From assembly GCA_023230265.1 (NCBI GenBank), contig JALNXR010000001.1, forward strand, positions 1 through 39,153: 39,153 nt of DNA. Reading direction: 5' to 3'. Origin of the DNA: Bacteroidales bacterium (GTDB taxonomy: Bacteria > Bacteroidota > Bacteroidia > Bacteroidales > UBA932). This document shows positions 15,670 to 39,153 of the stretch, piece by piece (position 1 is the stretch's first letter; the number at the start of each line of letters is the position of its first letter). The notes under the pieces were generated by a model that was not told where the DNA came from, did not search any database, and worked only from the letters and a program-made list of their open reading frames with translations. The translations under genes and the position numbers were made by a program.

Positions 15670-16043
15670 GTAAAGTTGAGAAGTTTGAGGATTTGTTTGT
15701 TTGGCAAAAGGCTTTTGAGCTGAGTCGTGACATATACAGTATAACGACAAATGAACCTTTTGCTCGTGATTGGGGACTGAAAGATCAGATAAGACGTGCA
15801 TCTGTTTCGGTTATGTCCAACATTGCAGAAGGATTTGAACGTTATAGCAACCCGGATTTCGCAAGATTTTTGGCAATTGCACGCGGTTCATGCGCAGAAG
15901 TTAAAAGTCAGCTTTATCTAGCCCATTCACTTGACTGCATATCAGAAGAAAACTTCGAAAAATTACGTAAACTGTGCTCCCTATTGTCAGGAAGCATTGG
16001 AAAACTGCGAAGCTCACTCAACAAGACAGGAGGGCGAACCTAA
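15666..16043 (+). CDS. Four-helix-bundle protein (S23/23S IVS type)
   Basis: This 125-residue protein matches the four-helix-bundle family first met in intervening sequences of 23S rRNA genes. Typical segments are FEDLFVWQKAFELSRDIY at the N-terminus, QIRRASVSVMSNIAEGFER in the middle and ARGSCAEVKSQL after it. Its molecular role is not established. It is not part of the standard BREX-3 set and is inserted between brxHII and pglZ. Its ATG overlaps the brxHII stop and its TAA overlaps the pglZ ATG (TAATG), so translation is coupled. Inverted GTGCA repeats border it on both sides, as expected of a small repeat-bounded insert. No SD-like site stands out beyond the repeat. Confidence 0.88.
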   Translation: MSKVEKFEDLFVWQKAFELSRDIYSITTNEPFARDWGLKDQIRRASVSVMSNIAEGFERYSNPDFARFLAIARGSCAEVKSQLYLAHSLDCISEENFEKLRKLCSLLSGSIGKLRSSLNKTGGRT

Positions 16044-18064: not shown

Positions 18065-18066
18065 TT

Positions 18067-18816: not shown

Positions 18817-18827
18817 GGTGTTATTAA

Positions 18828-19088
18828 CAAGAATCTAATTATGATCAAAGAAAGCAGGGCATCCGCATGGCGACCTTACACCGGGTTAAAGGCCTTGAAT
18901 TTGACTTCATCTTTGTGGTCGGAGTCAACGACGGCATAATACCCTTAAGCGCTGCCATGGCTGCCGATAACGACTTTGACCGAGCGGAGAATGAAATCCA
19001 GGAGCGCGCCCTGCTCTATGTTGCCGGCACACGAGCCCGCCAGCGACTCTTTGTCAGCTCATCAGGATTTCCCAGTACGTTTTTGTGA
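18828..19088 (+). pseudogene. C-terminal tail of a UvrD-like helicase
   Basis: The open segment reads GIRMATLHRVKGLEFDFIFV, then NEIQERALLYVAGTRARQRL and ends SSSGFPSTFL. These are the last helicase motifs (V and VI) and C-terminal end of UvrD/PcrA-like SF1 helicases. Only about 86 codons remain and there is no ATPase domain upstream, so this is a remnant. It lies between brxA and the ATPase-SNF2 pair and marks a recombination scar where another system was replaced. Confidence 0.8.
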
Positions 19089-19170
19089 TTTGTGAATGGA
19101 TGATTTATTGTGACTAGTTTTTATCCATTACTTGTAAAGTGTTGGAGATGTTTACACGGAGGATATTTAA

Positions 19171-22577: not shown

Positions 22578-22586
22578 ATCTGCTCT
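22578..22586. repeat. Target site duplication, right copy
   Basis: ATCTGCTCT, identical to 21028-21036. Translation through it (ATC TGC TCT) gives ICS in both halves, so excision with one copy kept restores the frame. Confidence 0.95.
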
Positions 22587-25500
22587 AATTCTTTGTCGAA
22601 TCATTTGAGGCGACTATCAGAACAACAGCACATTATTGACTGGTCAGACATTGAAAATGTGATGAGCGCGGAAGAAAACTGGGATGAAAAGGGTGCTAAG
22701 TTCTGGGATGACCTGCGTGATCCATGCCCGCGAAGTCTGACAAGGAAGGTGCTCTCGTTCCTACGGGTTCGAGATGGGAGCAATAAGTGGACTTTGGTAA
22801 GTGATGTTTGGTTGTTGGAAGGGAATTCTTTATGTTTGAAGGGTCTGTTCATTCCATGGCGAAGGGGTAATCAATTAAACGATAATCTGCGCAAACATGC
22901 CTTAGTGAAATTAAAAAGTTGGGAAATTTATGACCATTACATAGAGGCGGTTCAGGATAAAATAGAAAAAGATTATCCAGGTGTTTTTACTCAACGGATT
23001 GAAGTTGAAGGTCTGGGATTTCTAGATAACGCAATCCAGAGTATATCTACCCTTGAGCGTCAATGGCAACCTTTGGTTAAGGGTGGCGTTCGAAAATCAA
23101 TGACTAATTTTCTGAATAGTGAATGCAAGGCAAAAGAAACGCTTCTTTCACGAACCTTAGATGTGTCAATGAGAGAGGTGGTTTCATGGCTGCCTGAATA
23201 TCGAAATACTCCTGATTGGTTGACGCTGGATATAGAAAATTTAATAAACGGCCTGAACATTCCACAACATTGTTATTTCAAGCTTCTCACTAAAGCTGAA
23301 CTCACCGTAGACACAAAAAAATCCTTAGCTCAGGAACTTCTCAGAAAGTTTTATCTCTGGAAAGGGAAAGAGATTTCAAGCGACCAGACGTTAGCTCTTA
23401 AAGAACTTTTCAGGGATGTGACAAGTACATGGGAAATTAGGATTTCGAGTGGCACCCCAAAATTTCTCAGCCAATTTATAGATCACACCTCAGGTGGTGG
23501 GGTTGACTTTAACTTGCTTACAGTAAATAATGGCCAAATGGATTGGAGAGAATCAGAACAGTTGCCAGAACCGCTGACAAATATAGCTCCAATTGCTGAT
23601 ACCTGTCTAACGCTCGGCGAGCTGGCTCGTAAGGTGAAGCCTGCTGAGGGTGAGCGACCAATATTAGCTGGCCAACTCACCGATGAACTACGGCAAAATG
23701 AATCGTTCAATTCATTATATTCTAAATATCAAGATAAAACGCTGATCTATACAACACGTTTGGCCATAACATGGCATTGCAACAATAAGATTGTATGCGG
23801 AATTAATGATGCCATGTTTGCCGTAGATGAGGAAAACATTTATGTGACTCAGGCGGATATATCTTCTGATGATGCGCAGGCTTACGCTGATGTCATAAGT
23901 AATTATCTGCAACGTTCTGCAGATAAAGAGGTTGATAAATACAGAAAAACCCATCCACCTGAAGTTGTCTATGATAAATTTAGAAACAGAATTCTAAAAA
24001 CATTTCGCCGTGAATTTGTTAATGACGCAGGTTACAGGTGTGAGCATATTTTAAGGGAACTTCTTCAAAATGCTGAAAGTGCTTATGCCAGCAAAAAGGA
24101 GAAACCAAACGAGATGTATTTCTCTGTTTGTATGAATGAGGTTGGTGCAACCGGAAAAGAGAGTGTTGAAATATCACATCAGGGGCGATGCTTCAACGAA
24201 ATAGATAAATCAGGAAACGAGCGTGATGATATCCGGCGTATTGTAAGCACCGCTCCCATTGATGTTGCGATGGAGGATGAAGTGGGGCGCTTTAATCGTG
24301 GATTTAAATCTGTCTTTGATGCTACAGATTCTGTGAAAGTTAAAAGCGGTCCGTATGAATTTAACCTACGAGATTTTCTTTTAGTTGATCCGCAATACCC
24401 CGTTGCGTCTTGTGACTCGAAAAACACTAAAACTTTATTTTCTTTTGAGACCAAGACAGCGACTCTTGATAATATGCTTGGATGGTCAAAAGGCAGCAGA
24501 GGAGTTAGGCGCATTGGGGTTTTTAATGAATTTTCGTTTGTGTTTCTGCGATATATAACCTCTGTTGTTATGAAGCGTGGCAAGTCAGAGACAAGATGGA
24601 CTCTGCAACGAAAAATAATAAATGATAATGAACACGAGACAGTAATAGCATCTGGCTCAAGTACGGTTGATAAGTTTGTTAATATCAGTGAGTTTCCAAA
24701 AGGGCTTGTGATTAAACCAGCGGATAGAGTTGATGTTGCCATCTTGGTAAATGATAATAATATTCCAAAACCAAGTTTGCATAATCAATTGTATGTGACA
24801 TTTCCCGTTTCTACAAAAGGTCCAACTGGTTTCTTAATTAATGCACCATTTGATGTTGATCAAGGGCGAACTGGTATATTGCCAAAATCAAGAAATGCTG
24901 CATTGGTTAAAGCAGCTTTTTCAATAGCGCGTCAAAAAACAGAGGTGGCAATTAAAGAGTGTCCTGAAATTGAGGTATGGTTGGCGTGGGCAGCGATTTG
25001 GGATATTGCATCAGCACAGGCATGGATTAAATCTCACTTTTCTGACGATTCGATGCAGTTGACCAAAGACCTAGGTGAAGTTCGCGATCTTTTTCTTAAA
25101 AATATCCCTGTGAATGGTAGATTGCAGCATGCCGAATCACTTATCTTTCCCACACGCTTGATGCGTACAATATCGGAAATAAAGGGAACGGAATGGTCTA
25201 TTGATCAATCAGAATGGATGAGTCAGGAAATATGCGATGTTATATCATCAATAGCGAAAGACTGGCAACGGTATAGTTTTATTGATTACATTGAGGAAAA
25301 CAGCGATAATCAAATGCTTCTGAATGAGATTCACTTGCAACTTAATCGTACATGCTTCACAGAGGAATTAGGGAAAGGCGTTGTTGAACTTCGTGAGATT
25401 GATTCAGCCAAGGACAAGTTAAGCAAACTGTTGCAACAACAGATCCTTCAGCTTCAGGATTTTATTCCTGTCCCTGTCAAGGAACCTGATCGTAAACCTG

Positions 25501-26348
25501 TGCAGGCTCCGGAGGTTCTTTACAACTGGTGGAATGAGAATTGTGATCTAACCCCATATGTTCTTGAGGGCGCTTGGTGGGATCTTCTATTTCCCGAAAA
25601 TTTAACAGAAAGCACAGGGCGAAGGAAGGGCATGCTTTGTGAGGGTTTGTCAAATCCTGATAATGACGAGGGTAAGCTTTTGTGGTACAAGGTCCTTTCT
25701 TTACCGTGTTTAATGGGTACAGGTAGGCAAATGACTGCGGTTAGAGATTTTTGGATTAACAGGCTTAATACGACAGATTTCTTTAATGTTGCATCCAGCA
25801 ACAATGATGATATCCGTAAAGTATTCGATGATGCAATTCATCATAAATTAAAAGGTGATAGTGCCACAGGAGAAGATGCGGTGTTCTGGCGACGTGTTTT
25901 CTATGATATCCGAAAAATCAGAACATTGGTTTATGAAAATGATTTTGCTTCAGTTATTCTTGAGGTTGCATCCAATGATGTTTGTAACTTAGTTAGATTT
26001 ATGCGTAATGGAACTATTCCTGGACAGCAAGATTGGGCTGGAGTTATGGGGCAAAGTGCAGGCGGACCTCTTTTCTTTGTAATGCGAGAGCTAAGGCGGC
26101 TTGGTGTCATTGAATCAGCCGAAGCAGATAGCAGTTGTTATTTTGTGTGCAAGCCTGTCAGAAGGGCAGCATATGAGTTAGGTTGGATTGATCAAAGGTT
26201 GAGAGATCGTTACGATTTTAGCTCATTACAAGAGGCTAGTCGATGCATCTATGAAATCATTACTGAAGATGGAGAGGTTGGCGACAATCTTTTGCCATTA
26301 TATGACATCCCTCTGATGCATTATCATCAGAAATTGAGAGGACAATAA
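22587..26348 (+). pseudogene. Double-GHKL (sacsin-like) ATPase, 3' part
   Basis: Codons 623-1875 of the interrupted gene. Joined to the 5' part they read LATNICS-NSLSNHLRRLSEQ without a stop. A second GHKL domain lies at about residues 1100-1220: N box LRELLQNAESA and G2-like VGRFNRGFKSVF. The last 500 residues have no motif I can name and look helical, with a winged-helix-like end. The open frame also extends back into the IS (from 22332), but that N-terminus is only the shadow of the transposase. Whether an internal start gives a separate product is unknown. It ends 2 bases before the SNF2 gene, so the two formed one operon. Confidence 0.8.
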
Positions 26349-26350
26349 TT

Positions 26351-29134
26351 ATGAGCACCGAATATGAAGTCGGCAGTCGAGTGATACATAAAGCTCATCC
26401 CGAATATGGATTCGGAGTAATTCGATACATAGAAGAAGATGCATTTGGGGATTTGCGTTATCAGGTCAGCTTTGATCATGTGCTTCAAAATATCACTGTT
26501 CCCCCCGGTGGCTTAAAGCTGCTGCCGAAAACTTTAGATTTGTTAAATTCCCAGTCATTTGAGTCGGTAGAGATCTTCAACCGTAAGCTATCCGCAGGGC
26601 TTGTCTTAGGGGAGAATAATCGCACCGGGGCATTTATTCAGGCTGCCATACAGCCATTGCCACATCAAGCATACATTCTGGAGAAGGTTTTTTCAAATGG
26701 GCGCATGGGGCATATACTGGCTGATGATGTCGGCCTTGGTAAAACCATTGAGGCTGGCCTTATTATCACGGCAAGTAGACATTCAGACAAAGAATTGCGA
26801 GTTCTTGTTGTCTGTCCAGCAGGGCTAGCTCTGCAGTGGCAAGATGAAATGGAAGACAACTTCTCTTTATTTTTTTCAATAATGGGTGTTGATTTCGACG
26901 GAAAAAGATTAGGTGGATGGCAAAACAGGAATATGGTAATAGCTCCCATTGATAGAATGAAACGTGAGGATTACAGAGATATTTTAAAAAATATAGGAAT
27001 GTTTGATCTTGTTATATGTGACGAAGCTCACAGGTTAAATGCCTCACGCAATATAATGTCTAACGACCTTGAAAAAACTGCAAATTATAAACTCTTTGAA
27101 TTTTTGCTTGAAAGTGGATTAATTGATTATGTGCGTGGGGCTAATTATGAGCCCCGGTCTCCAAAGTTGCTTTTGCTTACAGCTACACCGCACCAAGGTG
27201 ATAACTTGCGTTTTCTTCATCTTTTGCATCTTGCGCGACCTGATTTGTATGTGCTTGATGAGAAAAAAATTACAGAACAATTGAGCCAGGAAAATTTAAT
27301 AGAAACACTTACACGTACACCTAAATCTGAAGCTGTTGGCTGGGATGGCAAACCAATATTTAAGGGACATGTAACTCATACGATTGACATATCCTGGACA
27401 GAAGAAGAGTTGGATCTGTCCCGTAAATTGACAAAGTATATCAAAAAAAGTTTAGAGGGTGAATATGCCACAAAGAACCATAACCAATTGGTTGTTGAAC
27501 TCGTTATGCATACCTTTCATAAGATAGCCGCATCCAGTTGGTTTGCCTTGAAGGAAACGATGAAAAACAGACGGTTTCAACTAACAGGTCAATCTAGTTT
27601 AAATAAACTTCCGAGTGATGATGGTGAAGTTCAAGAATCCACAAGCTTGCTAATACCAGGTAAGCAATTTTTTGATGATGAGTTGAAATTATTAGATGAC
27701 ATTATTGATTCCATCAACCTTCTTGTTTCTGATTCCAAGTGGGAATTATTTGTCAAACTTATGGATTCGATTAGTAAACATAAAAAAAATGAAAAACTTT
27801 TGATTTTCACACAATATCGGGCTACACAGGATATGCTGATCAGTCAACTTAAAGCCGCATATTCAAAGGAAAGCATTGAGTGTATAAATGGCGATATATC
27901 TATGGACGGACGTCGAGAGGCAAGAGCAAGGTTTGAAAAGGGTTCAAGATTTCTTGTGTCAACAGAAGCTGGTGGCGAGGGTATTAACCTTCAAAAGAAG
28001 TGCCATATTCTTGTGAATTACGATCTCCCGTGGAATCCTATGCGATTACAGCAACGCGTGGGCCGACTCGACAGATATGGTCAGACTCATATAGTGGATG
28101 TTTATAATCTCCGTGTGGAAAATTCTTGGGATCAAAGAATATCTACCCGTATAATTGAACGTCTTGACGTAATCCAATCAACAATGGACAAAGCAATTGA
28201 TGGAGTCGAAGATTATAAAGAGATGATTTTAGGAACAATTGCAGAAGACATTAACCCAACAAAACTCTTCGCTAAACAATATGCAAGCCTACAGACAGGT
28301 CTTTCTGATGCAGAAATTGACACAAGAATACAACGGGCGATGGATTCCGTTAAAAAATGGAATAGCTTGGTGCATAAATCTCTTGGTATGCCTGTTGAAC
28401 AAATCCATTCACACTGTCGGTTGACATCTGACCATCTGCGTACTGCTTACGAAAAATCATTACTTAATCATGAAATTAGCTTGCAAAGCACAAGGACAGA
28501 GGAAAATAAATTTATTCCAGATGTTTACCACTTCAAAATTCCTGATAAATTCAAAACCAAGAGTTTACGGGCATCCAAAGATTGCTATGTTGTTTTCAGT
28601 AGAGAGCGATTTGAAGAGGTTCGAAATGAAGTGATAGGAAGGGTGAGAGGACAAGATATTCGCCCTCAGCTTGCAGGTTTTGGAGATCCATTTACAGATT
28701 GGCTGTTTTCCTGTAGCTTTCTTGCTGATGATAATGAAAGCTCTTTTTGTATTACACCGCCAAAAGAGTGGGATCGTGGTTCTGGTATTGTTTTTGTGTA
28801 TGCGCTGGGCTGGATGGGAGGCTCAAGACGCCTGAATGCGCCAGACTCTTTGTGTGTGGTATTTGTGCCAAATAATGGAGATGCTGTGAGTTTACCACCG
28901 GAAGAGTCTATGGTTCTTGTATCATCACAAGACGGTGTATCTTCTTATCCGTATCTTGATATTTGCGATACAGCTGGACAGTCAGCACTCACTCTTGCCC
29001 GAAAGGAGTTGAAAGATATAGCAGAACATCGTGATCAGCGATCACGTTCAACTGCTTCAATATCTTTGCTTATGGCTGCTCAAGTTTGCGGTGCAATGGA
29101 GGCAGCGCAGCAAGGGCACCAGGGTTATTCCTGA
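26351..29134 (+). CDS. SNF2-family helicase paired with the GHKL ATPase
   Basis: This 927-residue RapA/DrmD-like helicase has motif I DDVGLGKTIEAGL at 125-137, a DEAH box (LVICDEAHRLNAS) and LLTATPHQG. The C domain has EAGGEGINLQ, NYDLPWNPMRLQQRVGR and DRYGQ. The first 60 residues (VIHKAHPEYGFGVIRYIEED) look like a small SH3/Tudor-type barrel. It resembles BrxHII upstream in length and motifs but belongs to a different pair, with the giant GHKL ATPase ending 2 bases earlier. No DISARM genes (drmA, drmB, drmC) or methylase accompany it, so I do not call it DrmD. A DNA translocase role is expected. With its partner interrupted, the system may be inactive. Confidence 0.88.
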   Translation: MSTEYEVGSRVIHKAHPEYGFGVIRYIEEDAFGDLRYQVSFDHVLQNITVPPGGLKLLPKTLDLLNSQSFESVEIFNRKLSAGLVLGENNRTGAFIQAAIQPLPHQAYILEKVFSNGRMGHILADDVGLGKTIEAGLIITASRHSDKELRVLVVCPAGLALQWQDEMEDNFSLFFSIMGVDFDGKRLGGWQNRNMVIAPIDRMKREDYRDILKNIGMFDLVICDEAHRLNASRNIMSNDLEKTANYKLFEFLLESGLIDYVRGANYEPRSPKLLLLTATPHQGDNLRFLHLLHLARPDLYVLDEKKITEQLSQENLIETLTRTPKSEAVGWDGKPIFKGHVTHTIDISWTEEELDLSRKLTKYIKKSLEGEYATKNHNQLVVELVMHTFHKIAASSWFALKETMKNRRFQLTGQSSLNKLPSDDGEVQESTSLLIPGKQFFDDELKLLDDIIDSINLLVSDSKWELFVKLMDSISKHKKNEKLLIFTQYRATQDMLISQLKAAYSKESIECINGDISMDGRREARARFEKGSRFLVSTEAGGEGINLQKKCHILVNYDLPWNPMRLQQRVGRLDRYGQTHIVDVYNLRVENSWDQRISTRIIERLDVIQSTMDKAIDGVEDYKEMILGTIAEDINPTKLFAKQYASLQTGLSDAEIDTRIQRAMDSVKKWNSLVHKSLGMPVEQIHSHCRLTSDHLRTAYEKSLLNHEISLQSTRTEENKFIPDVYHFKIPDKFKTKSLRASKDCYVVFSRERFEEVRNEVIGRVRGQDIRPQLAGFGDPFTDWLFSCSFLADDNESSFCITPPKEWDRGSGIVFVYALGWMGGSRRLNAPDSLCVVFVPNNGDAVSLPPEESMVLVSSQDGVSSYPYLDICDTAGQSALTLARKELKDIAEHRDQRSRSTASISLLMAAQVCGAMEAAQQGHQGYS

Positions 29135-29297
29135 AATTAGTGATGTCACTACGCGTGTGCATATAGTAACAGAGAGGAGAGCGATATTAAGTAGAAGTCA
29201 AATTCAAGTTTTGTTGCGAGAATTAAAAGCTGGTGGACGTATTTATGTCTGTGGTTCAACTAATACAGCTTGTTGGTTTGTAGTAATTTATTGCTGA
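29091..29297 (+). CDS. Possible small ORF after the SNF2 gene
   Basis: From GTG 29091 an open frame of 68 codons runs past the helicase stop (44-base overlap) and encodes TRVHIVTERRAILSRSQIQV and a Cys-rich end. The central part looks like a short helical, possibly DNA-binding, unit. No good ribosome binding site is visible and I recognise no family. It may be chance. Confidence 0.25.
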   Translation: MQWRQRSKGTRVIPEISDVTTRVHIVTERRAILSRSQIQVLLRELKAGGRIYVCGSTNTACWFVVIYC

Positions 29298-29330
29298 AAA
29301 TTGCAACTTGGTCGGTTGAAAAGCAATTTT
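29297..29330 (+). terminator. Possible hairpin after the ATPase-SNF2 pair
   Basis: AAAATTGC (29297-29304) pairs with GCAATTTT (29323-29330) around an 18-base loop. It is AT-rich, lacks a clear T tract and is weak as a terminator, but it lies just after the last codon of the preceding reading frame. Confidence 0.3.
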
Positions 29331-29386
29331 ATTCACAAATTAATTTCATAAAGTATTGAAAAACATTTTGTTACGTCTTCAATGTT

Positions 29387-29414
29387 TTGAAATTAGTTGC
29401 AATCGGGTTGTAAT
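29387..29414 (+). promoter_or_regulatory. Putative promoter of the HEPN gene
   Basis: TTGAAA (29387-29392) and TGTAAT (29409-29414) are separated by 16 bases. The HEPN start follows at 29450, with AAAAGGA as ribosome binding site at about 29437-29443. Confidence 0.45.
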
Positions 29415-29449
29415 AGTTGTGGTCATCAGTACCTTAAAAGGATTGTGAT

Positions 29450-30100
29450 ATGAAATTAAATTTTGATACATTAAAGAGACGGCAGCATGAGCTGGGGGAG
29501 ACGTTGCCGCAGGATGTTTATCTGCGGGTGCATCGGGCGTTGAGCTGGTTGAAGGCAGCAAATGAAAGCTCGTCGCCGGATGCTAAGTTTATCTTCCTGT
29601 GGATCGCGTTTAATGCAGCGTATGCACAGGAGTTTAAATCCGGTCAGGAGCTGATGAAGCGTGACTCTTTTAAGGAGTTTTTGGGTCGGCTGCTGCGTCT
29701 GGATTGTGAGGATCTGGTCTATAACATTGTCTGGGAGAATTACTCCGGCAAGATCCGTCTGTTTATCGATAATCAATATGTGTCGCGCTATTTTTGGGAT
29801 TATCACAATGGCAGGCTGACAGAGGAACAATGGGTTAAGAAGTTTGAACGGAGCCGCGCTATGGCACAGAAAGCTTTGGCAATTAAGGACACGGTTGTCT
29901 TTGTCGGTATTCTCTTTGACCGCCTCTATGTGCTGCGCAACCAGCTGGTGCATGGCGGTGCTACTTGGGAGAGCAAGGTCAACCGCGATCAGGTTCGCGA
30001 TGGGTATCGCATTATGCAGGATCTCGCTCCTGCTATCATTCATATCATTATGGAGAATGCCGAGGAAGCCTGGGGCAAACCCTGCTATCCACCAGTGTGA
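29450..30100 (+). CDS. HEPN-domain protein (full-length parent of fragments)
   Basis: This helical protein of 216 residues carries RNQLVHGG with R163-x4-H168, the RX4-6H motif of HEPN RNases including the common Asn after Arg. That suggests an RNA-cleaving defence or toxin protein. I cannot name a closer family. AAAAGGA lies seven bases before the ATG and a promoter-like pair is upstream, so it may be transcribed alone. No partner nucleotidyltransferase (MNT) is adjacent. Partial copies of this gene occur at 31502, 34018, 38014 and 38699. This is the only complete one in the window. Confidence 0.7.
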   Translation: MKLNFDTLKRRQHELGETLPQDVYLRVHRALSWLKAANESSSPDAKFIFLWIAFNAAYAQEFKSGQELMKRDSFKEFLGRLLRLDCEDLVYNIVWENYSGKIRLFIDNQYVSRYFWDYHNGRLTEEQWVKKFERSRAMAQKALAIKDTVVFVGILFDRLYVLRNQLVHGGATWESKVNRDQVRDGYRIMQDLAPAIIHIIMENAEEAWGKPCYPPV

Positions 30101-30213
30101 AGTTAGAGGTATTATGACAAACAAAAATTACAAAATAGCGGCAACGAATGGTCGAGGTGCAAAGTGGGGGAAGCTGTAAACTTGGTAAAAAAAAATAAAA
30201 GAGTTGAAGAAAT

Positions 30214-30354
30214 ATGAATCCGCGAAATTTCAAAGTATGGTTGACTGCAGTTCGAAAATTGCTGAATAATCCTGATCTTTCAGACAATCAAAACAATCTG
30301 CATTCTTTAGCATTTGATTATATTAGTGAGTGGAAAGAACGAAATTATGGTTAG
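30214..30354 (+). CDS. Small ORF coupled to the nuclease gene
   Basis: The 46-residue ORF (MNPRNFKVWLTAVRKLLNN and onward) has GAAGAA upstream. Its stop overlaps the nuclease ATG (ATGGTTAG), an arrangement typical of translational coupling. I recognise no family. An antitoxin-like or nuclease-modulating partner is possible. Confidence 0.45.
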   Translation: MNPRNFKVWLTAVRKLLNNPDLSDNQNNLHSLAFDYISEWKERNYG

Positions 30355-31249
30355 AATCGGAGATCAATATGCGCCGGATAACAGATTCAAGGCGGCGGCC
30401 AGGCTGCACCAGTCAAAATACAGGGCTGAGGTTCTGAAGGTCGGCTTTAATGAGTATGGCAACCGGCTGTCTGATGAGGATGCAAAAGCGCTGCTGAATT
30501 ACTATGACAAGCTGAACTGCAGGGGTATGCTGCGTTTCCGTTATCCTAATTATGCCAAGAGGCGCGATGCGGATATGCTGCGTAGTGAGCACATCCCGTT
30601 TAATCTGCTGGCTCCGCTCATTACAGATGAAAAGAGCGCGATAGCGATTATTAAGCGTGCGTTTGGAATTGAATGTACAGACATTCGCTGCATTAAAATG
30701 GAATATGCTCCTGAATCGAAGGAGAGTTACTTAAATGACGGAACGGCCTTTGATACGTATATTGAGGTAATTAAAGCGGGTGGTAAAAAATGCGGCATCG
30801 GGATTGAAGTGAAGTATACTGAGCAGGCTTATCCAGTTGGTAGGACAGAGAAACTAAATGTGGAAGATCATGATTCGCCATACTGGCGGACCGCAAGAAA
30901 TTCAGGCTCCTTTATTGATGCGGATGACCCGGTATTCGCTTCTGATCCACTGCGTCAGATATGGAGGAATCACCTGCTTGGACTATCAATGATTCAGCGT
31001 GGCAATATTGACGAGTTCTACTCCGTAACCATGTTTCCTGCTGGCAATGATCACTTTCATAAGGAGCTACCTCGCTATAAATATGTGTTAGCAATCGGGG
31101 CAAGCGATCATGTGCTTGGTTGCACCTTTGAGAAATTCATCGCAGCCATTGCTGGAAGTTCAGATTTTCTTGCATGGAAAGAGTGGCTCAGACGAAGGTA
31201 TGTTGTTTGCGGATATCGCATCGTGAATGATGGGCAGCCAGTCATATAG
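30347..31249 (+). CDS. PD-(D/E)XK nuclease, PGN_0703-like
   Basis: The 300-residue protein has AFDTYIEV and then GIGIEVKYTE. The Asp and E-x-K spacing fits the PD-(D/E)XK nuclease core, and overall it resembles the PGN_0703 family of putative restriction endonucleases. I choose ATG 30347, which overlaps the stop of the small upstream ORF, rather than the TTG at 30314. There is no methyltransferase beside it, so if it is a restriction enzyme it would depend on modified DNA, on the BREX methylase, or act differently. Confidence 0.65.
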   Translation: MVRIGDQYAPDNRFKAAARLHQSKYRAEVLKVGFNEYGNRLSDEDAKALLNYYDKLNCRGMLRFRYPNYAKRRDADMLRSEHIPFNLLAPLITDEKSAIAIIKRAFGIECTDIRCIKMEYAPESKESYLNDGTAFDTYIEVIKAGGKKCGIGIEVKYTEQAYPVGRTEKLNVEDHDSPYWRTARNSGSFIDADDPVFASDPLRQIWRNHLLGLSMIQRGNIDEFYSVTMFPAGNDHFHKELPRYKYVLAIGASDHVLGCTFEKFIAAIAGSSDFLAWKEWLRRRYVVCGYRIVNDGQPVI

Positions 31250-31281
31250 AACTTAACGAACAGAGTTAAAAGGCACTCACT

Positions 31282-31492
31282 ATGATGAAATTAATCTATC
31301 ACAGTGAGAGTGCGATTAAAGAGGGGAAGATGTCAAACCATAAAGAGGTCTTTTCTGAGCTGGAACAGAGAGCTGATCATAGCACCTTGGCGCGTGATAT
31401 ATAAAATTGAAAAAGGGTGTGTTTATATCGAAGTTGTGATTGATGGCCGTCGCAATCTTGAGGATCTGTTGTTCCGGAGAATTATACGTTGA
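31282..31492 (+). pseudogene. Toxin-antitoxin remnant (ParE/RelE tail)
   Basis: A frame from ATG 31282 reads SAIKEGKMSNHKEVFSELEQ and stops at 31404, resembling the C-terminal end of a Phd/RelB-type antitoxin. In another frame APWRVIYKIEKGCVYIEVVI then DGRRNLEDLLFRRIIR is the C-terminal half of a ParE/RelE toxin, ending at 31492. The toxin N-terminus is missing, so a deletion has fused the two genes. Confidence 0.7.
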
Positions 31493-31501
31493 ATAAAGCC
31501 C

Positions 31502-31662
31502 ACCGCCGGATGCTAAGTTTGTCTTTCTGTGGATCGCGTTTAATGCAGCGTATATTACTCCGGCAAGATCCGCCTGTTCATCGACAATCAATATGTGTCG
31601 CGCTATTTTGGGGATTATCACAATGGCATGCTGACAGAGGAGGAGTGGGTTAAGAAGTTTGG
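31502..31662 (+). pseudogene. HEPN gene fragment, copy B
   Basis: This matches the complete HEPN gene at about 29575-29622 and 29738-29845, with the 115 bases between lost. It lacks both ends. It lies directly between the toxin-antitoxin remnant and the AbiE module. Confidence 0.85.
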
Positions 31663-31676
31663 AAAGCACAAAGCAA

Positions 31677-31933
31677 CATTAACCACGAAAAGCACGAAAA
31701 GCACGAAAGGGGGTGCGTAGCTGAGTTTTTTGGCCCGCGAATCTCCGCGAAAGGATAAGGGTATTTCATCCCCGCTTCCGTCTTCGCGCTTCGCGTCTAC
31801 GCCGTGACAAGACGCGGGGTCGCTAATCGCTTGAAATACTCTTATCATAAGATCACTTTTAAAAACAATCTAGCGCACCCTCTGTGCCTCAGTGTCTCAG
31901 CGGCAAAAAATTGGTTACGGCTATGGTTCAGCT
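31677..31933 (+). repeat. Composite dispersed repeat, left copy
   Basis: It includes ACGAAAAG units, a CCGCGAATCTCCGCGAAAGG element and a palindromic block: GATAAGGGTATTTCA at 31754-31768 against TGAAATACTCTTATC at 31832-31846. It ends in CTCTGTGCCTCAGTGTCTCA. A near-identical copy is at 38394-38643. There is no gene here; a reverse-strand open frame is a by-product. Confidence 0.85.
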
Positions 31934-31968
31934 ATTCAATGTGGCTTTTCCTTTCTCCAGTTTTTTGA

Positions 31969-32007
31969 TTGCCTCGCTTCGAAAGTTATTGCATAATATG
32001 CGCAATA
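31969..32007 (+). promoter_or_regulatory. AbiE promoter with operator-like palindrome
   Basis: TTGCCT (31969-31974) and CATAAT (31992-31997) are 17 bases apart. TATTGC (31987-31992) and GCAATA (32002-32007) form an inverted repeat over the -10. AbiEi proteins are known to repress their own operon through inverted repeats, so this is a plausible operator. Confidence 0.5.
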
Positions 32008-32026
32008 GATCGGAATTTTATCGATT

Positions 32027-32677
32027 ATGAATGCAAATATTACATTAATGTTGCGTGGCTTTGGATCTGTTCCGCTTTCCACTGCTGCTGTTGACACACT
32101 TCTGGTAGATTATAATTCGCCAAAGGACAAGGTTTCCTACATGGTGGAGCAAGGTGAACTTATCCGCATCAAACGCGGACTCTACTGTGTCTCCCCCACT
32201 ATCACAGGACAACGACTGTCAACTGAAATTGTCGCAAACCATCTCTACGGCCCATCTTACATCTCATTGGAAACAGCGCTTTCCTTTTACAATCTCATCC
32301 CAGAGCGAATCACCTCTACTCAATCAGTTGTAACCAAGCGGACAAAAACTTTCCAAACTCCGCTTGGACGTTTCACATATAGTTCGATACCGGACAATTA
32401 TTACTCCATTGGTATCCGCCAGAAGAGCAGTGAGTCAGGGAGTACCTTTTTGATAGCATCTCCCGAGAAGGCGTTGTGTGATCTGATTTTACTACGGCCG
32501 AACCTGCGCATTGTCTCGAAAAAAGCTATGTTTGTTTTCTTAACGAAGTATATGCGAATTGATCTTCAAGAGCTTAAGAGCCCTGATCTCGCTGTTATTG
32601 ACGAATGTATTGCTACACAGCATAAGTCGACTCAACTTCGCTGCCTAAGAAAGGTCATTGAGCATGAATGTTTTTGA
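32027..32677 (+). CDS. AbiEi-type antitoxin
   Basis: The 216-residue protein has the winged-helix start of AbiEi antitoxins (YMVEQGELIRIKRGLYCVSP) followed by IVANHLYGPSYISLETALSF and IASPEKALCDL, typical of the family. AbiEi neutralises AbiEii and represses the operon. Its end overlaps the toxin start by 14 bases. The upstream palindrome over the -10 supports autoregulation. Confidence 0.88.
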   Translation: MNANITLMLRGFGSVPLSTAAVDTLLVDYNSPKDKVSYMVEQGELIRIKRGLYCVSPTITGQRLSTEIVANHLYGPSYISLETALSFYNLIPERITSTQSVVTKRTKTFQTPLGRFTYSSIPDNYYSIGIRQKSSESGSTFLIASPEKALCDLILLRPNLRIVSKKAMFVFLTKYMRIDLQELKSPDLAVIDECIATQHKSTQLRCLRKVIEHECF

Positions 32678-33497
32678 TTCCATGATGTCAAATTTCTCTA
32701 TCACTACGGATGCGGATTATAGGAACGCATTGCGTGAAGTAATGCAGAAGATTACGCTTGCCGCGCTCTACCGCAGTGATTTTTTCAAGAGGTCAGCTTT
32801 TTACGGAGGAACATGCCTGCATTTCTTTCACGGGCTGCCGCGATTCTCAGAGGATATGGACTTCTCCCTTTTACAGGCAGACTCAGGCTTTCGATTAACA
32901 GACTACTTTGATGTGATTGCCAACGAATTCAAGGCGATGGGAAGAGAGGTTACAATTAAGCGCAAAGAGAAAAGGCTAAACAGTGCAATTGAATCAGCTT
33001 TCCTGAAAGATAACACAGACGTTTACAATCTTGCTTTTAAAACAGAGAGAACTGTTAAAATCAAGATCGAAATAGACATTGTGCCACCACTTGAATTCAA
33101 AACAGAAAATCGCATACTCATGCTTCCATTCTCTTTTGCTACGCGCTGCTTTACCATCCCCTGTTTATATGCCGGCAAGATGCATGCGCTACTCTTCAGG
33201 GGTTGGAAGCAACGGGTTAAAGGCCGCGACTGGTACGATTTCGAGTGGTATATACGTCATCGGATTGGTTTAGATTTAAATCACTTTCAGCAACGTATGC
33301 AGCAAAGCCATCCAGAGTTACCCGTGCCCGAAACACTTGACGATCTAAAACAACTTGTCAAAAGGAGGATTGAGCAGCTCAATATTGAAGACGCAAAATT
33401 TGATGTCACACCCTTTGTTAAAAACACATCTGAACTGGATATCTGGAGCCGTGGTTACTTTAATGAGATAGTGAACCAAATGACAATAAACTTTTAA
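32664..33497 (+). CDS. AbiEii nucleotidyltransferase toxin
   Basis: The 277-residue protein has the nucleotidyltransferase core FYGGTCLHFFHGLPR then FSEDMDFSL, with GGT at 48-50 and R60-x-S-x-D-x-D66. KGRDWYDFEWY comes later, as in AbiEii toxins. Such toxins modify tRNA ends or use nucleotides to stop growth on infection. ATG 32664 has AAGG ten bases upstream; a TTG at 32658 is a less likely start. All catalytic residues I can check are present, so this pair looks functional. Confidence 0.9.
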   Translation: MNVFDSMMSNFSITTDADYRNALREVMQKITLAALYRSDFFKRSAFYGGTCLHFFHGLPRFSEDMDFSLLQADSGFRLTDYFDVIANEFKAMGREVTIKRKEKRLNSAIESAFLKDNTDVYNLAFKTERTVKIKIEIDIVPPLEFKTENRILMLPFSFATRCFTIPCLYAGKMHALLFRGWKQRVKGRDWYDFEWYIRHRIGLDLNHFQQRMQQSHPELPVPETLDDLKQLVKRRIEQLNIEDAKFDVTPFVKNTSELDIWSRGYFNEIVNQMTINF

Positions 33498-33504
33498 CCA
33501 TCGG

Positions 33505-33547
33505 CTAGCAGTTTTTCGGACTTCTTCGAAGTCCGAAAAACTGCTAG
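33505..33547 (+). terminator. Long perfect hairpin after AbiEii
   Basis: The arms are 20 bases (CTAGCAGTTTTTCGGACTTC at 33505-33524 and its complement at 33528-33547) around a TTC loop. ATAAAAAAG follows on this strand. It begins 7 bases after the toxin stop. It may terminate transcription or be a REP-type element. A related hairpin is at 33973-34008. Confidence 0.55.
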
Positions 33548-33561
33548 ATAAAAAAGAAATA

Positions 33562-33622
33562 CCTCTTAATATTATTTTAATATCTAATATTATGTGATAT
33601 AATACAAGTAATTATTAAGAGG
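33562..33622. repeat. AT-rich inverted repeat before the IS remnant
   Basis: CCTCTTAATA (33562-33571) and TATTAAGAGG (33613-33622) are perfect complements, with very AT-rich sequence between. It lies beside the transposase remnant and could be its left end, though no matching right end is visible. Confidence 0.4.
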
Positions 33623-33629
33623 GTTTGGT

Positions 33630-33825
33630 TTTATTGCATTACGACTGAAACTTATTGACCGGGACACCCCTATGTTGTTACCGCCTGACTTGCGGGATTG
33701 GGATAAAAGAAGCGATGGTTTCCCGCAGGTTTCTAACGAGAGGCATTGAGTCAGTATGCACTGAATGGGATCTTGTCACTCTGTCATATAACTGTAAACG
33801 GCTTTTTAACATCATCAATGCTTAA
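33630..33825 (+). pseudogene. IS1182-like transposase remnant
   Basis: One frame reads LRLKLIDRDTPMLLPPDLRD, the N-terminal signature of IS1182-family transposases. A second reads RRFLTRGIESVCTEWDLVTL and then SYNCKRLFNI, resembling their C-terminus. The two are adjacent, so nearly the whole catalytic part is deleted. The element is dead. Confidence 0.7.
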
Positions 33826-34017
33826 AAAAGGGCATATCGGCCCGTTTGGACGCCTCGTTATCATAAAACCACAATCGTACACAGAAATCTAACTCACGGG
33901 TAGGGTTGCTTACGACGACTTGTCATCAGATTTGAGCATCTTTTAGTATCTCAGCGGCTTTGCCGCTGCCTAAGCAGGCTGCCGGACTTTTAAGTCCGAC
34001 AGCCTGCTAGGAAGATA
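33826..34017. repeat. Non-coding stretch with two hairpins
   Basis: No gene is visible. CAGCGG-CTTTG-CCGCTG forms a hairpin at 33952-33968. AGCAGGCTGCCGGACTT (33973-33989) pairs with 33992-34008 with one mismatch. The second shares CAG-N5-CGGACTT with the hairpin at 33505, so the two probably belong to one repeat family flanking the IS remnant. Confidence 0.55.
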
Positions 34018-34284
34018 GCATGAGCTTGGCGATACTCTTCCGCATAATGTTTATCTGCGGGTGCATCGGGCATTGAGCTGGTTGAATGCGGCGAATGAAA
34101 GCTCTTCGCAATTAAGGACACGGTTGTCTTTGTCGGTATTCTCTTTGACCGTCTCTATGTGCTGCGCAATCAGCTGGTGCATGGCGGTGCCACCTGGGAG
34201 AGCAAGGTCAACCGCGATCAGGTGCGCGATGGGTATCGCATTATGCAGGACCTTGGCCCTGCCATCATTCATATCATTATGGAG
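34018..34284 (+). pseudogene. HEPN gene fragment, copy C
   Basis: This matches the complete gene at about 29485-29575 and then 29878-30055, keeping both sides but losing about 300 bases in the middle. The catalytic RNQLVH region is still encoded, out of context. It ends just before the Fic promoter, and beyond GGAG its sequence departs from the full gene. Confidence 0.85.
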
Positions 34285-34328
34285 CTTTCATCTATTCTCG
34301 ATTTCATGCGTTGCCGATAATAAGCGTG

Positions 34329-34357
34329 TTGACTATTCTCGTTTAATCTCTTATTAT
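34329..34357 (+). promoter_or_regulatory. Strong promoter close to the Fic start
   Basis: TTGACT (34329-34334), 17 bases, then TATTAT (34352-34357). Transcription should begin at about 34363-34366, which is at the ATG at 34365, so the mRNA may have no leader. No Shine-Dalgarno site precedes this ATG, which agrees with a leaderless transcript. Confidence 0.65.
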
Positions 34358-34364
34358 CAAAGCT

Positions 34365-35537
34365 ATGAATGTTAACGGAGATGGATCAGGACGATTTGTT
34401 AATTGTTCAGGCGGTTATCAGGCTTTTGTGCCGAATCAATTGCCGCCTGATATTGTTTTTTCAAAGTCACTATTACGTGCCCTATCTGATGCCGATAGGT
34501 TGATTGGGCAACTGGCAGGAGAAGGGCGTGCTCTTCAGAACCCGCACTTGCTGATGAGGCCATTCATAAAACGAGAGGCGGTCCTTTCCAGCCGTATTGA
34601 AGGAACACAGGCAACATTGGGTGAACTTCTGGTTTCTGATGCAGGAGCTTCTGTTGAAAGAAGTCCTGATGATTTACGAGAAGTCGGAAATTATGTGATC
34701 GCTCTTGAATATGGTATTTGTCGGTTGAAGGAGCTTCCTTTATCTCTTCGCCTTGTTTTGGAGTTGCATGCAAAACTGATGAAAGGTGTTCGAGGCGGAC
34801 ATGCCACTCCTGGCGAGTTTAGGCGTTCGCAAAATTGGATAGGTATTCCAGGCTGTACTCTCCAGAATGCTTCGTACGTGCCGCCGCCAGTTTCGGAGCT
34901 TATGAAATGCCTAGCGGAATGGGAGATTTTTTTGCATGATCGGTCATTGCCACCTTTGATTCAAGTCGCGATGCTTCACAGCCAGTTTGAAGCAATACAC
35001 CCCTTTTTAGATGGTAATGGTCGTGTTGGCCGGTTGCTGATTACACTGTTCCTGATCGAAAGAGGTATTCTACCCACACCCCTATTATATTTAAGTGCAT
35101 TCTTTGAAGCAACTCGGAGTGACTATTACAGTGGACTTGCCGGTGTAACCCAAAAAGGAGCATGGAACGAGTGGATTGAGTATTTTCTTAACGGTGTTGC
35201 CCGCATGTCGGAGGATGCGCTTAGCAGGGCGGAAAGAATGAACTCTTTATTGATTATCTGGCGTCAGCAAGCAATAGGACGAAGCAAAGTGCCCTTAAGA
35301 ATATTAGAGATGATTGAGGAAAACCCATACTGTACGTTAAAGCGGATATCCGAGAAATTGGATTTGGCATTTTCAACCGCGCAGAGGGGAGTTGATAAGT
35401 TAATAGAATCAGGCGTGTTAGTGCAAGTTGATGCATCTAAACGAAATCGGGTTTATTGTGCGCAGGGCATTATGGATATTCTGAATGAACCGCCAGCGTT
35501 CCTGAGTAAGGGGCATAAGGGCCAGCCCCTGATTTAG
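34365..35537 (+). CDS. Fic-family protein (class II, AMPylator-like)
   Basis: The 390-residue protein has the catalytic HPFLDGNGRVGR at 212-223 and an N-terminal inhibitory motif SSRIEG at 75-80 (S/T-x3-E-G/N), which defines class II Fic proteins that restrain themselves. A winged helix follows at the C-terminus (LRILEMIEENPYCTLKRISE). The activity would be AMP or another nucleotide-like group transfer to a protein; the target is unknown. The gene has its own promoter and no separate antitoxin gene. A stub of a second copy is at the end of the window. Confidence 0.93.
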   Translation: MNVNGDGSGRFVNCSGGYQAFVPNQLPPDIVFSKSLLRALSDADRLIGQLAGEGRALQNPHLLMRPFIKREAVLSSRIEGTQATLGELLVSDAGASVERSPDDLREVGNYVIALEYGICRLKELPLSLRLVLELHAKLMKGVRGGHATPGEFRRSQNWIGIPGCTLQNASYVPPPVSELMKCLAEWEIFLHDRSLPPLIQVAMLHSQFEAIHPFLDGNGRVGRLLITLFLIERGILPTPLLYLSAFFEATRSDYYSGLAGVTQKGAWNEWIEYFLNGVARMSEDALSRAERMNSLLIIWRQQAIGRSKVPLRILEMIEENPYCTLKRISEKLDLAFSTAQRGVDKLIESGVLVQVDASKRNRVYCAQGIMDILNEPPAFLSKGHKGQPLI

Positions 35538-35638
35538 AACTTAGCGTGTCTTAAATTTCAGTTATGATGGTAGATTAGCAGAAGTTTATGGTATATGTTG
35601 AATGCTTGATGCGGCCTGCGCGATTGGAGAAAGAGAAA

Positions 35639-38004
35639 ATGTCCAATAATGATAAGAGCAGTAATGAGCAGGAGCCTTCAAAAGGTCAGGTTAAAATGAA
35701 AAGCGGCCTGTTTCAAAAATTAGTTGAGAGTATAGAAGAAGCAGGGAAAATCCAAAAAGGTATGTTCAGGAAAAGCTCAGCTTTTTTTATGATTTGTTCC
35801 ACTGCCGACGTGATATTTATGCGCAACGTTTTGAGAGTAAAAAGAGCGGCAAGAGTGGATATCAACCAGTTTGTGTGAATTTATGGAAAAAGCCGCTTTG
35901 TCAGAAACCAAAGGCAAAGTGTAATAGATGTCAGCATCGGTTATTGGCTCCGTTAACAACCGATGTTTTGTCCCAGCATCTGGGAGGGAGGATCACAGTT
36001 GGAATATATCCTTTGCTTCAAAATGACTTTTGCCGGTTCCTTGTTGCTGATTTTGACAAGGCGGGCTGGCAGGCTGATGCGTCAGTCTATATGCAGGTAT
36101 GTGGGAATCGGGACATTCCAGTTGCTTTAGAGCGCTCCCGTTCTGGAAACGGCGGGCATGTTTGGATATTTTTTGAAAAAGAAGTTCCTGCTCGTCTGGC
36201 GAGGCAAATGGGTTCTTCTCTCATTACGGAAGCGATGATGGTTCGACCGGATATGGGGCTTGATTCGTATGACAGGCTCTTTCCTAATCAGGATACTTTA
36301 CCAAGCGGCGGATTCGGAAACTTGATTGCATTGCCATTGCAAAGAGGACCAGCTTTATGCGGTAACAGTTTATTTGTTGATGCAGCTTTCAGGGTTTATT
36401 CAGATCAGTGGGCCTTTTTGTCATCGCTCAGACGAATGGCGGTTGGTGAAATAGAACAAGTGGCCTTAGCTGCAAAATATGCGGGCAGGATTGTTGGAGT
36501 CCGCCCTGTTAGCGTGGATGATGAATCTGAAGACCCATGGTCGTTACCTCCTTCACGCCGTAAGAAAAAGGCGGAAATTTTTAATAATATCCCCAAGGAA
36601 ATAACGCTTGTTCTGAGTGATGAAGTATATGTGCCTAAAGAGCACCTTCCTCCTGTTTTGTTAAATGAAATTGTGAGGTTGGCCGCATTTCAGAATCCTG
36701 AATTTTATAAAGCGCAATCTATGCGACTTTCTGTTTACGGAAAACCACGCGTTATTGGTTGCGCTGATGATACCGGTGAGTACATCGGGTTGCCCCGTGG
36801 TTGTCTTGATGATTTGCTGGTATTTTTTCAGGAGTTGGGGGTTGTTGTCGTAGTTGAAGATAAACGCTATGAAGGCGTGGAGCTTAATGTGTCGTTTACA
36901 GGGGAGCTTTGGGTCAAGCAAGACCTTGCAGTCGCGGAGTTATTGAAACATGATTTTGGAGTATTGTCGGCATCAACTGCATTCGGTAAAACAGTTGTTG
37001 CAGCATTTATGATTGCCAAGCGAGGAGTGAATACATTGGTGTTGGTGCACAGACGACAACTCATGGACCAATGGGTTGAACGCCTTCGCATGTTTCTGGA
37101 TATTGATCGAAAAAAAATAGGTTCGATTGGAGGTGGAAAGCGTAAGGCAACTGGTGTTATAGATGTTGCTGTAATGCAAAATATTTGTCGAAAAGGCGAG
37201 GTTGATGATCTTGTCGCAAATTATGGACATGTGATAGTCGATGAGTGCCATCATGTTTCAGCGAGAAGTTTTGAGTTAATTGCTCGGCGTTGTCGCCCCC
37301 GCTATATGTTGGGTTTATCGGCAACTGTTGTTCGTAAGGACGGGCATCACCCTATAGTGTTTATGCAGTGTGGTCCGATTAGATTTCGCGCTAACGACAA
37401 GGAGGAGGCCGCCGCTCGCCCATTTACACATATAGTGGAGCCAATTAGCACTGGGTTTACTCTTCCCTCTGATGTTGAGGACGAAAAGATACAAATCCAG
37501 GATGTTTATAGGTTGCTAATTGAGGATCAACAACGGAATCAGCTGATAGCGGATAGGGCTCTCTTGGCTTTGAGCGAGGGCCGAAGTCCAGTGTTGTTAA
37601 CAGAACGTCGACAGCACCTTGATTGGTTCAGTGAATTTTTTGAGGGACGTGTTGAACATCTTGTGGTTTTGCATGGGGGAATGGGGATAAAGGAACGACG
37701 GATAAAACAAAAGATCCTTGCGGATACTGTGGAAAACGGATCTAACCGGCTTATTCTTGCAACTGGAAAATATCTGGGGGAGGGATTTGATGATGCCCGA
37801 TTGGATACATTATTGTTAGCAATGCCTGTGTCTTGGAAAGGGACTATTTCCCAATATGCAGGACGGCTACATCGTCTAGCAGCAGATAAAAGAAAAGTTG
37901 TTATCTATGATTTTGTGGACGAATCAGTGCCTGTTCTCAAAAGAATGTTTGAGCGTCGTTGCAAGGGGTATGTTGCGATAGGATATTCCTTTAAAAAAAG
38001 CTAA
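35639..38004 (+). CDS. TOTE-type primase-helicase with apparent frameshift
   Basis: The AEP primase part shows SKKSGKSGYQPVC, a CNRC pair, RFLVADFDKAGW and ERSRSGNGGHVWIFF, as in TOTE conflict-system primases. An XPB/UvsW-like SF2 helicase follows, with STAFGKT (Walker A), VDECHH and LSATVVRKDG, then QYAGRLHRL. The primase N-terminus (KLSFFYDLFHCRRDIY) begins before the first in-frame start at 35794 (a TTG). Upstream, a different frame from ATG 35639 (GGAG nearby) gives a fitting leader ending KIQK. One added A in the run at 35754-35758 would join them into one protein of about 788 residues. As read, only the TTG 35794 product (736 residues, part of the primase missing) is continuous. No nuclease domain follows the helicase. 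Confidence 0.78.
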
Positions 38005-38013
38005 GGGTGTTTC

Positions 38014-38098
38014 ATCGACAATCAATATGTGTCGCGCTATTTTTGGGATTATCACAATGGCAGGCTGACAGAGAAGGAGTGGGTTAAGAAGTTTGGAA
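38014..38098 (+). pseudogene. HEPN gene fragment, copy D
   Basis: This matches the complete gene at about 29763-29848 and is nearest to copy B. It starts 10 bases after the primase-helicase stop and opens the right-hand degenerate duplication. Both gene ends are absent. Confidence 0.8.
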
Positions 38099-38126
38099 AG
38101 CACAAAGCAACATTAACCACGAAAAG

Positions 38127-38393
38127 CCTAGCGCAGCATAGCCGCAACCAATTCTTTATCTCTCACAGAGGCACAGAGTTCTCTGAGTTGTTTCAGAGTT
38201 TCCACCAGCAAAGACTCAAAGGCGTAAAGTTCGGGCTCGACGTTCCCAGTTTTCCACATTTTTCACCTCTAAGATTTTTCACCTTAAAATATTCTCTCAG
38301 TGCTGCGAAAAGTTCAGCTACTCTCTGTGTTCTCTGTGCCTCTGTGAGAGATAATAAACGTACAAAAAAAACAAGAATATGAATGATAGTAGT
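38127..38393. mobile_element. MITE-like insertion of 267 bp
   Basis: Compared with the left copy near 31688, 267 bases are inserted after one ACGAAAAG unit, which is present on both sides (38119-38126, 38394-38401). Internal inverted repeats of 23 bases (38156-38178 and 38332-38354, starting TTATCTCTCACAGAGGCAC) bracket the middle. There is no gene inside. The duplicated ACGAAAAG may be a target duplication or a unit of the repeat array. Confidence 0.6.
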
Positions 38394-38643
38394 ACGAAAA
38401 GCACGAAAAGCACGAAAGGGGGTGCGTAGCTGAGTTTTTTGGCCCGCGAATCTCCGCGAAAGGATAAGGGTATTTCATCTCCGCTTCCGTCTTCGCGCTT
38501 CGCGTCTACGCCGTGACAAGACGCGGGGTCGCTAATCGCTTGAAATACTCTTATCATAAGATCACTTTTAAAAACAATCTAGCGCACCCTCTGTGCCTCA
38601 GTGTCTCAGCGGCAAAAAATTGGTTACGGCTATGGTTCAGCTT
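38394..38643 (+). repeat. Composite dispersed repeat, right copy
   Basis: Nearly identical to about 31685-31933, including the ACGAAAAG units, the palindromic block and the end CTATGGTTCAGCT. There is no gene. Confidence 0.85.
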
Positions 38644-38697
38644 TCCACTGCTAATGTTGACACACTTGACGATCTAAAGCAACTTGTCAAAGCGAGA
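38640..38697 (+). pseudogene. AbiEi/AbiEii stubs
   Basis: GCTTTCCACTGCT and GTTGACACACT match 32074-32100 of AbiEi. TTGACGATCTAAA and ACTTGTCAAA match about 33337-33362 of AbiEii. Together they are what remains of the AbiE pair in the duplicate, about 55 bases. Confidence 0.75.
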
Positions 38698-38698
38698 A

Positions 38699-38909
38699 TT
38701 GAGCTGGTTGAAGGCGGCGAATGAAAGCTTTGGCAATTAAGGACACGGTGATCTTTGTCGGTATTCTCTTTGACCGTCTCTATGTGCTGCGCAATCAGCT
38801 GGTGCATGGCGGTACCACCTAGGAGAGCAAGGTCAACCGCGATCAGGTATGCGATGGCTATCGCATTATGCAGGATTTCGTTCCTGCCATCATTCATATC
38901 ATTAGGGAG
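38699..38909 (+). pseudogene. HEPN gene fragment, copy E
   Basis: This matches about 29549-29570 joined to 29871-30055 of the complete gene. The join is at GAAAGCT, present at both ends of the missing 305 bases. Copy C lost a similar stretch at different breakpoints, so the deletions are independent. A TAG now interrupts the frame (ACCTAGGAG). Confidence 0.85.
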
Positions 38910-38953
38910 CTTTCATCTATTCTCTATTTAATGCGTTACCGATAATAAGCGTG

Positions 38954-39153
38954 TTGACTATTCTCGTTTAATCTCTTATTATCAAAGCTATGAATGTTAA
39001 AGGACATGGATCAGTACGATTTATTAATTATCTGGCGTCAGCAAGCAATAGGACGAAGCAAAGTGCCCTTAAGAATATTAGAGATGATTGAGGAAAACCC
39101 ATACTGTACGTTAAAGCGGATATCCGAGAAATTGGATTTGGCATTTTCAACCG
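38954..39153 (+). pseudogene. Fic promoter and shortened Fic gene, second copy
   Basis: The TTGACT/TATTAT promoter (38954-38982) and ATG (38990) are preserved. After about 10 codons the sequence jumps to the part equal to 35255-35380 of the Fic gene, so the catalytic domain is missing. The join changes the frame and a stop follows. The last roughly 120 bases are identical to the upstream gene. The window ends inside it. Confidence 0.85.

Follow-up and report, generated by a model that had tools for sequence, protein, structure and literature searches.

Relics of a solo HEPN gene in a bacterial defence island and how they may have multiplied

Proteins of the HEPN superfamily carry the motif R-x4-6-H. 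Deletions that end in microhomology, as well as tandem duplications, occur in decaying bacterial islands, and swaps of modules in defence islands are usually inferred from flanking core genes or mobile elements. In the part of PMC3710099 available to us, HEPN genes are linked to restriction-modification and other defence operons and stand beside restriction/helicase operons. For the rhs main/orphan loci, the available text of PMC3967940 describes a full-length gene with partial copies lying downstream, which mostly lack start signals and have 95% identity over 522 base pairs (bp), and duplication followed by homologous recombination is proposed there. Here, we consider a window of 39,153 nucleotides (nt), the whole stretch of DNA that was analysed (Bacteroidales bacterium, assembly GCA_023230265.1, contig JALNXR010000001.1, positions 1 to 39,153), in which one intact solo HEPN gene is accompanied by four partial copies among defence genes. 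We lean towards the view that, in this defence/toxin-antitoxin island, which we read as probably that of a Kiritimatiellae bacterium, the gene was multiplied within the lineage, that the relics were left by repeated segmental duplication and short-homology deletion, and that HEPN is no dedicated exchange device. As the relics of this one gene can be counted and their breakpoints read in two genomes, they provide a place to ask whether the island turns over at homologous seams or by duplication and short-homology deletion. No description of HEPN relics as module seams was found in the literature at the level of titles and the starts of abstracts.

One intact HEPN gene and its relics

Comparison of the HEPN gene with the window by blastn returned seven pieces other than the gene itself, in four places, at E-values of 2.9e-78 to 1.1e-7, which exclude chance. 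The pieces are 31-188 bp long at 86-94% identity and thus represent copies with long near-identical stretches. The five features are as follows.

29450 to 30100, + strand: intact solo HEPN gene, 216 amino acids (aa), with an invariant R163-N-Q-L-x-H168
31495 to 31661, + strand: HEPN relic A, in which 31495-31553 (gene nt 116-174) is joined to 31554-31661 (nt 290-397), 92-93% identical
34017 to 34284, + strand: HEPN relic B, in which 34017-34109 (gene nt 35-127) is joined to 34097-34284 (nt 420-606), 86-94% identical
38008 to 38095, + strand: HEPN relic A', gene nt 311-397, 93% identical, which opens the second block copy
38699 to 38909, + strand: HEPN relic B', with 38699-38729 (gene nt 91-121) and 38723-38909 (nt 420-606), 92-94% identical

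A sequence-only reading of this DNA had reported one complete HEPN gene and four partial copies, which the seven pieces bear out, as Pfam and PADLOC do for the AbiE, Fic, and primase-helicase genes that it named as neighbours. Its statement that each copy keeps a different part did not hold, as A' lies within A and B' within B by gene position. Relics A and B overlap at nt 116-127 and carry different deletions, and therefore represent two copies besides the intact gene.

When the window is compared with itself, 38011-39153 is colinear with 31577-35379. The order in both blocks is HEPN-A, 257-bp spacer, AbiEi, AbiEii, HEPN-B, Fic leader, and Fic C-part, with the interiors of AbiE and Fic missing from the second block. 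A second copy of the approximately 6.4-kb block accounts for relics A' and B', and the four relics are thus not four independent events. The other parts of the two blocks are listed below.

31685 to 31941, + strand: spacer of 257 bp, part of a dispersed repeat family
32027 to 33497, + strand: AbiEi (32027-32677) and AbiEii (32658-33497), both open
34365 to 35537, + strand: Fic-family gene (PADLOC SoFic)
38128 to 38393, no strand assigned: insertion of 266 bp that is not in the first block copy, with internal 32-bp inverted repeats and a 9-bp sequence repeated on both sides
38394 to 38650: second spacer copy, of the same dispersed repeat family as 31685-31941
38635 to 38704, + strand: AbiE relic, in which 33 bp of AbiEi adjoin 46 bp of AbiEii with 6-bp junction homology
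38910 to 39153, + strand: second Fic, leader and 5' end joined to the C-terminal part, running off the window

The insertion at 38128-38393 resembles a miniature inverted-repeat transposable element.

The nearest genome, junctions, and alleles

A scan of genome contigs gave 23 loci, two of which (L001 and L022) lie in the closest genome, the Kiritimatiellae metagenome-assembled genome STCSWMC_123 (hereafter G001). Its DNA contains 13 HEPN matches, namely an intact gene on contig C102, 11 pieces on C114, and 38 bp on C5. On C114 the pieces amount to no fewer than four copies, as nt 55-105 is covered four times, and they fall in the intervals between the UDG-like gene and the Y1 transposase gene, between PIN and AbiE, between AbiE and HipA, and between HipA and HigB. 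An out-of-frame deletion of 179 nt, from nt 275 to 455, has an identical junction in the relics that follow AbiE and HipA, and three C114 relics contain a repeat element inserted near nt 107. Flanking sequence of 1.3 kb around the four relics shows similarity only within repeats, the longest of 183 bp. A dead junction shared beside unrelated neighbours means that HEPN DNA was copied when it was already dead. HEPN is not alone in recurring as fragments, as the UDG-like gene has a second piece, of 524 bp, at 13903-14411 of reversed C114. On C102, the intact HEPN gene is followed by primase pieces and then by a Fic piece, the pieces each being about 98% identical to the window; judging from gene order, a deletion spanning the junction between the two blocks of the window would leave this reversed arrangement. 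We also note that the Y1-type transposase gene on C114 (L037/L038) lies among HEPN relics and that a palindromic repeat abuts the HEPN pieces in three of them.

Among the HEPN copies of the window and G001, identity is 79-96% (overlaps of at least 20 sites), and the HEPN genes of five other genomes of the class are 59-68% identical to the window gene. HEPN is rare, with a match in 1/114 genomes of the family and 9/345 of the class. Each of the eight class genomes other than G001 has a single match (full-length in five, partial in three), and among the 20 genomes behind loci L002-L021, which were found by peptide patterns that favour full-length genes (L023 being left out), 19 have one HEPN match and one has two. 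In each of the eight class genomes a different gene adjoins the HEPN gene or fragment, with a nearby gene named by Pfam in 7/8, and no conserved partner gene of HEPN was found in these eight loci or in the five plasmid regions read from 25 records with a match. At one class locus (L076, 9844-10835, reverse-complement), three near-identical small genes that read as GIY-YIG-like follow one another downstream of HEPN.

Both parent sequences were available for comparison at eleven junctions of the window, C102, and C114. At 5/11 of these the parents share at least 4 bp (7 bp within B', 7 bp between AbiEii' and B', 6 bp within AbiE', and 6 and 4 bp in the primase relic of C102), whereas pairs of random positions do so in 1.8% of cases. 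Mean junction homology was 3.2 bp versus 0.69 bp at random, a value matched by 0/20,000 draws in a comparison that gave observed junctions the best run in their tie range and took random pairs at fixed positions. A stricter count using only the first split gave at least 4 bp at 4/9 (P 5e-5), and some of the compared junctions may share ancestry. The internal junction of relic A (nt 174/290) has 0 bp of homology. Outside the eleven, the HEPN-B/Fic leader junction was compared by eye with a HEPN-free Fic copy on C107 of G001, and GGAG is common to both; the homology of the window Fic with the C107 Fic starts at 34281, where relic B stops. Every HEPN junction that could be resolved is either an internal deletion or a connection to DNA other than HEPN, with homology of 0-7 bp, and none in the window, C102, or C114 is a HEPN-by-HEPN crossover between different cargo.

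The intact alleles of the window and C102 differ at 47/651 sites, and the differences are clustered: 8/34 in nt 1-34, 0/73 in nt 35-107, 4/111 in nt 108-218, 20/72 in nt 219-290, and 15/361 beyond. With the 72-nt length and the segment borders picked after looking at the data, 20 differences in 72 nt were reached by 0/2000 permutations. The longest identical run (77 nt) is not unusual, as 171/2000 permutations reach it. In nt 219-290, three of four C114 relics resemble the window more than they do C102, and the fourth is equidistant; loci L074 and L075 are marginally nearer to C102, and the listed protein relatives mostly share the isoleucine of C102 there. Homology between the two alleles starts at the start codon, with unrelated left flanks, and no G001 copy is closer to the first 34 nt of C102 (7/34 to copy c1 and 8/34 to the window). 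The unrelated flanks and the tract pattern, as read from the sequences, would fit crossover or conversion inside HEPN. Mosaic alleles of this kind argue that homologous exchange happens.

Weighing the explanations

In the explanation towards which we lean, segments between repeats, both HEPN pieces and other dispersed repeats, would have been duplicated and deleted repeatedly, with cargo arriving horizontally. The HEPN copies were worn down by deletions, with 4-7 bp of shared sequence at the ends of about half of those resolved, and the relics may have given homology for some events as one of several repeats able to act as seams. Homologous exchange of HEPN tracts may have taken place occasionally. 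Several observations weigh against this explanation. Protein relatives closer than those of the class exist (P0003-P0010, 79-92% aa), so that "within the lineage" may mean a wider pool, and 6/11 junctions have only 0-3 bp of homology. Passive duplication alone does not predict that C114 carries at least four copies of HEPN versus one of AbiE, one of HipA, and two of the UDG-like gene. Divergence between the two blocks is also uneven, with 8/490 sites differing in A, spacer, and Fic C-part versus 30/404 in AbiE, B, and Fic leader (Fisher p 1.9e-5 for two groups picked after looking at the data), and one simple duplication is therefore not the whole story. As the Fic leaders of both window copies and of the C107 copy are also about equidistant (3, 4, and 3 private differences), either the duplication is old or the copies were partly replaced.

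The sequence-only reading had proposed that HEPN copies served as seams for module exchange, and this idea fared unevenly. Crossovers between resident and incoming HEPN would exchange defence modules in such a model, which we regard as unlikely. AbiE is indeed flanked by HEPN pieces on either side, both in the window and on C114, a dead relic stands between unrelated genes, and the clustered differences between the window and C102, together with unrelated left flanks, divergence over the first 34 nt, and identity over the next 73, are what the model would lead one to expect. The pile-up in G001 speaks for it as well, and the finding of a different gene beside HEPN in 8/8 class genomes agrees with the proposal that HEPN flanks varying cargo in related genomes. 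However, at the HEPN-B/Fic, AbiEii'/HEPN-B', and TOTE/A' junctions the partner of HEPN is DNA other than HEPN, a single block duplication accounts for two of the four copies, and the HEPN junctions that could be resolved are deletions or joins with short homology. Genes other than HEPN also recur as fragments, and no two loci were found whose sole difference is the cargo enclosed by two HEPN copies. For the first 34 nt of C102 there is moreover no closer donor in G001, and the 77-nt identical run is not unusual by itself. Single matches, which had been named as evidence against seams, are indeed usual outside the lineage (19/20 and 8/8 genomes); G001 is multi-copy, and neighbours vary. A special seam role of HEPN is thus possible, but no HEPN-by-HEPN cargo swap was seen. 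A related proposal, to which we give an equally low chance, is that dead relics are kept multiplied as non-coding homology docks into which incoming HEPN-flanked defence modules recombine; if this were true, a toxin gene would have turned into a recombination seam for immune-gene turnover.

The edges of other modules bear on the same question. Window positions 105-2199 are common with C97 of G001 at 96.5%, and the shared stretch ends at 2199 at a boundary without HEPN; on C97, a repeat of 196 bp flanks an AlbA-type gene at either end. HEPN as a universal boundary is ruled out by the boundary at 2199 and by the 196-bp repeat at the C97 module. The 257-bp spacer family provides 62/81 of the G001 matches in a repeat comparison that scored 40 of 322 candidates, these counts being lower bounds. 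Separately, the dispersed repeat at window positions 105-300, which flanks the AlbA-type gene on C97 and has partial copies on C107 and, directly behind the Fic relic, on C102, is another candidate seam.

It is somewhat less probable still that each arriving defence operon brought its own HEPN, which then decayed. The different gene beside HEPN in each of the eight class loci, the differing neighbours in the five plasmid regions, and the linkage of HEPN with defence genes described in the available part of PMC3710099 would suit such passengers, but the present copies resemble one another more than they resemble the five full-length HEPN genes of other class genomes, and two relics with a common dead junction mean that at least some were copied after death. 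Carriage of HEPN pieces by a transposon or an integron cassette appears very improbable. The Y1-type transposase gene and palindromic repeats among the C114 relics, and the dispersal of other repeats, point in that direction; against this, HEPN DNA in G001 occurs only on C102 and C114, plus 38 bp on C5, versus at least 62 matches of the spacer, and a transposon is disfavoured by this confinement of HEPN to few contigs. The integron integrase TIGR02249 exceeded its cut-off in 0/1 genome (G001), where 11 weaker tyrosine-recombinase-like matches were found, of a kind that 14 control genomes give too, and a crude pattern detected two attC-like core pairs in the window and one in C114. Integron cassettes were rejected for G001 on the missing TIGR02249 match and the few attC-like pairs. 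Least credible of all is one tandem duplication as the source of every copy, which fits A' and B' but is ruled out for A and B by their overlap with different deletions, and G001 moreover has its own set.

Function, neighbours, and comparison with known systems

The window gene is probably a small RNA-cutting defence gene, a solo HEPN with a predicted RNase activity, as far as its sequence indicates. R163, N164, Q165, and H168 are invariant in 49/49 aligned proteins (the window protein included), which were picked from 120 listed among 5342 found, and we take the R-x4-H of the window gene to be the HEPN RNase signature. An AlphaFold2 model of the protein (mean pLDDT 87.1) has nine helices and no strand of at least 3 residues, and is thus all-alpha. 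PF18735 scores 19.5 bits against it, below the cut-off of 28.4, and matches 4/49 family members at E 0.001 or better; the protein had no match in NCBIfam or PADLOC, no sequence match in PDB at E 1, and no fold match there at E 0.001. Many of its plasmid homologues carry the annotation "HEPN domain-containing". The intact gene probably still works as a second-line RNase of the abortive-infection type beside changing defence operons.

Further genes near the relics are given below.

30314 to 31249: PD-(D/E)XK gene near the HEPN relics
31268 to 31500, + strand: remnant of a Phd/ParE-type toxin-antitoxin pair, named from reading the sequence without a family call
35794 to 38004, + strand: TOTE-type archaeo-eukaryotic primase plus helicase

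On C36 of G001 there is a longer, open gene pair that matches the toxin-antitoxin remnant. Upstream of the intact HEPN gene, window positions 2200-20000 and 19000-29449 (BREX, sacsin-like genes, helicase) have only 40-74 bp matches in G001. Positions 2349-18816 encode BrxF, BrxC, PglXI, a BrxH-type helicase, PglZ (NCBIfam BREX_PglZ_3), and BrxA, presumably a complete type 3 BREX set. At 19171-29134 there are two genes with weak sacsin/TmtA-like ATPase matches, a DDE transposase gene (21170-22450) between them, and then a BrxH/DrmD-like helicase; this region is possibly one defence system split by an insertion sequence.

The locus resembles decaying bacterial islands in its deletions ending in 4-7 bp repeats and in its duplicated block, and differs from them in that one gene is unusually over-represented among the relics. 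As in the rhs loci, partial gene copies stand beside a full-length gene. Unlike those loci, as far as the available text of PMC3967940 describes them, the HEPN copies are internally deleted, lack a toxin-tip/immunity pair, and lie between unrelated defence genes, and no fusion product was seen. The linkage of HEPN with defence operons in the available part of PMC3710099 is a functional one, whereas pile-ups of relics between modules are the feature of the locus described here.

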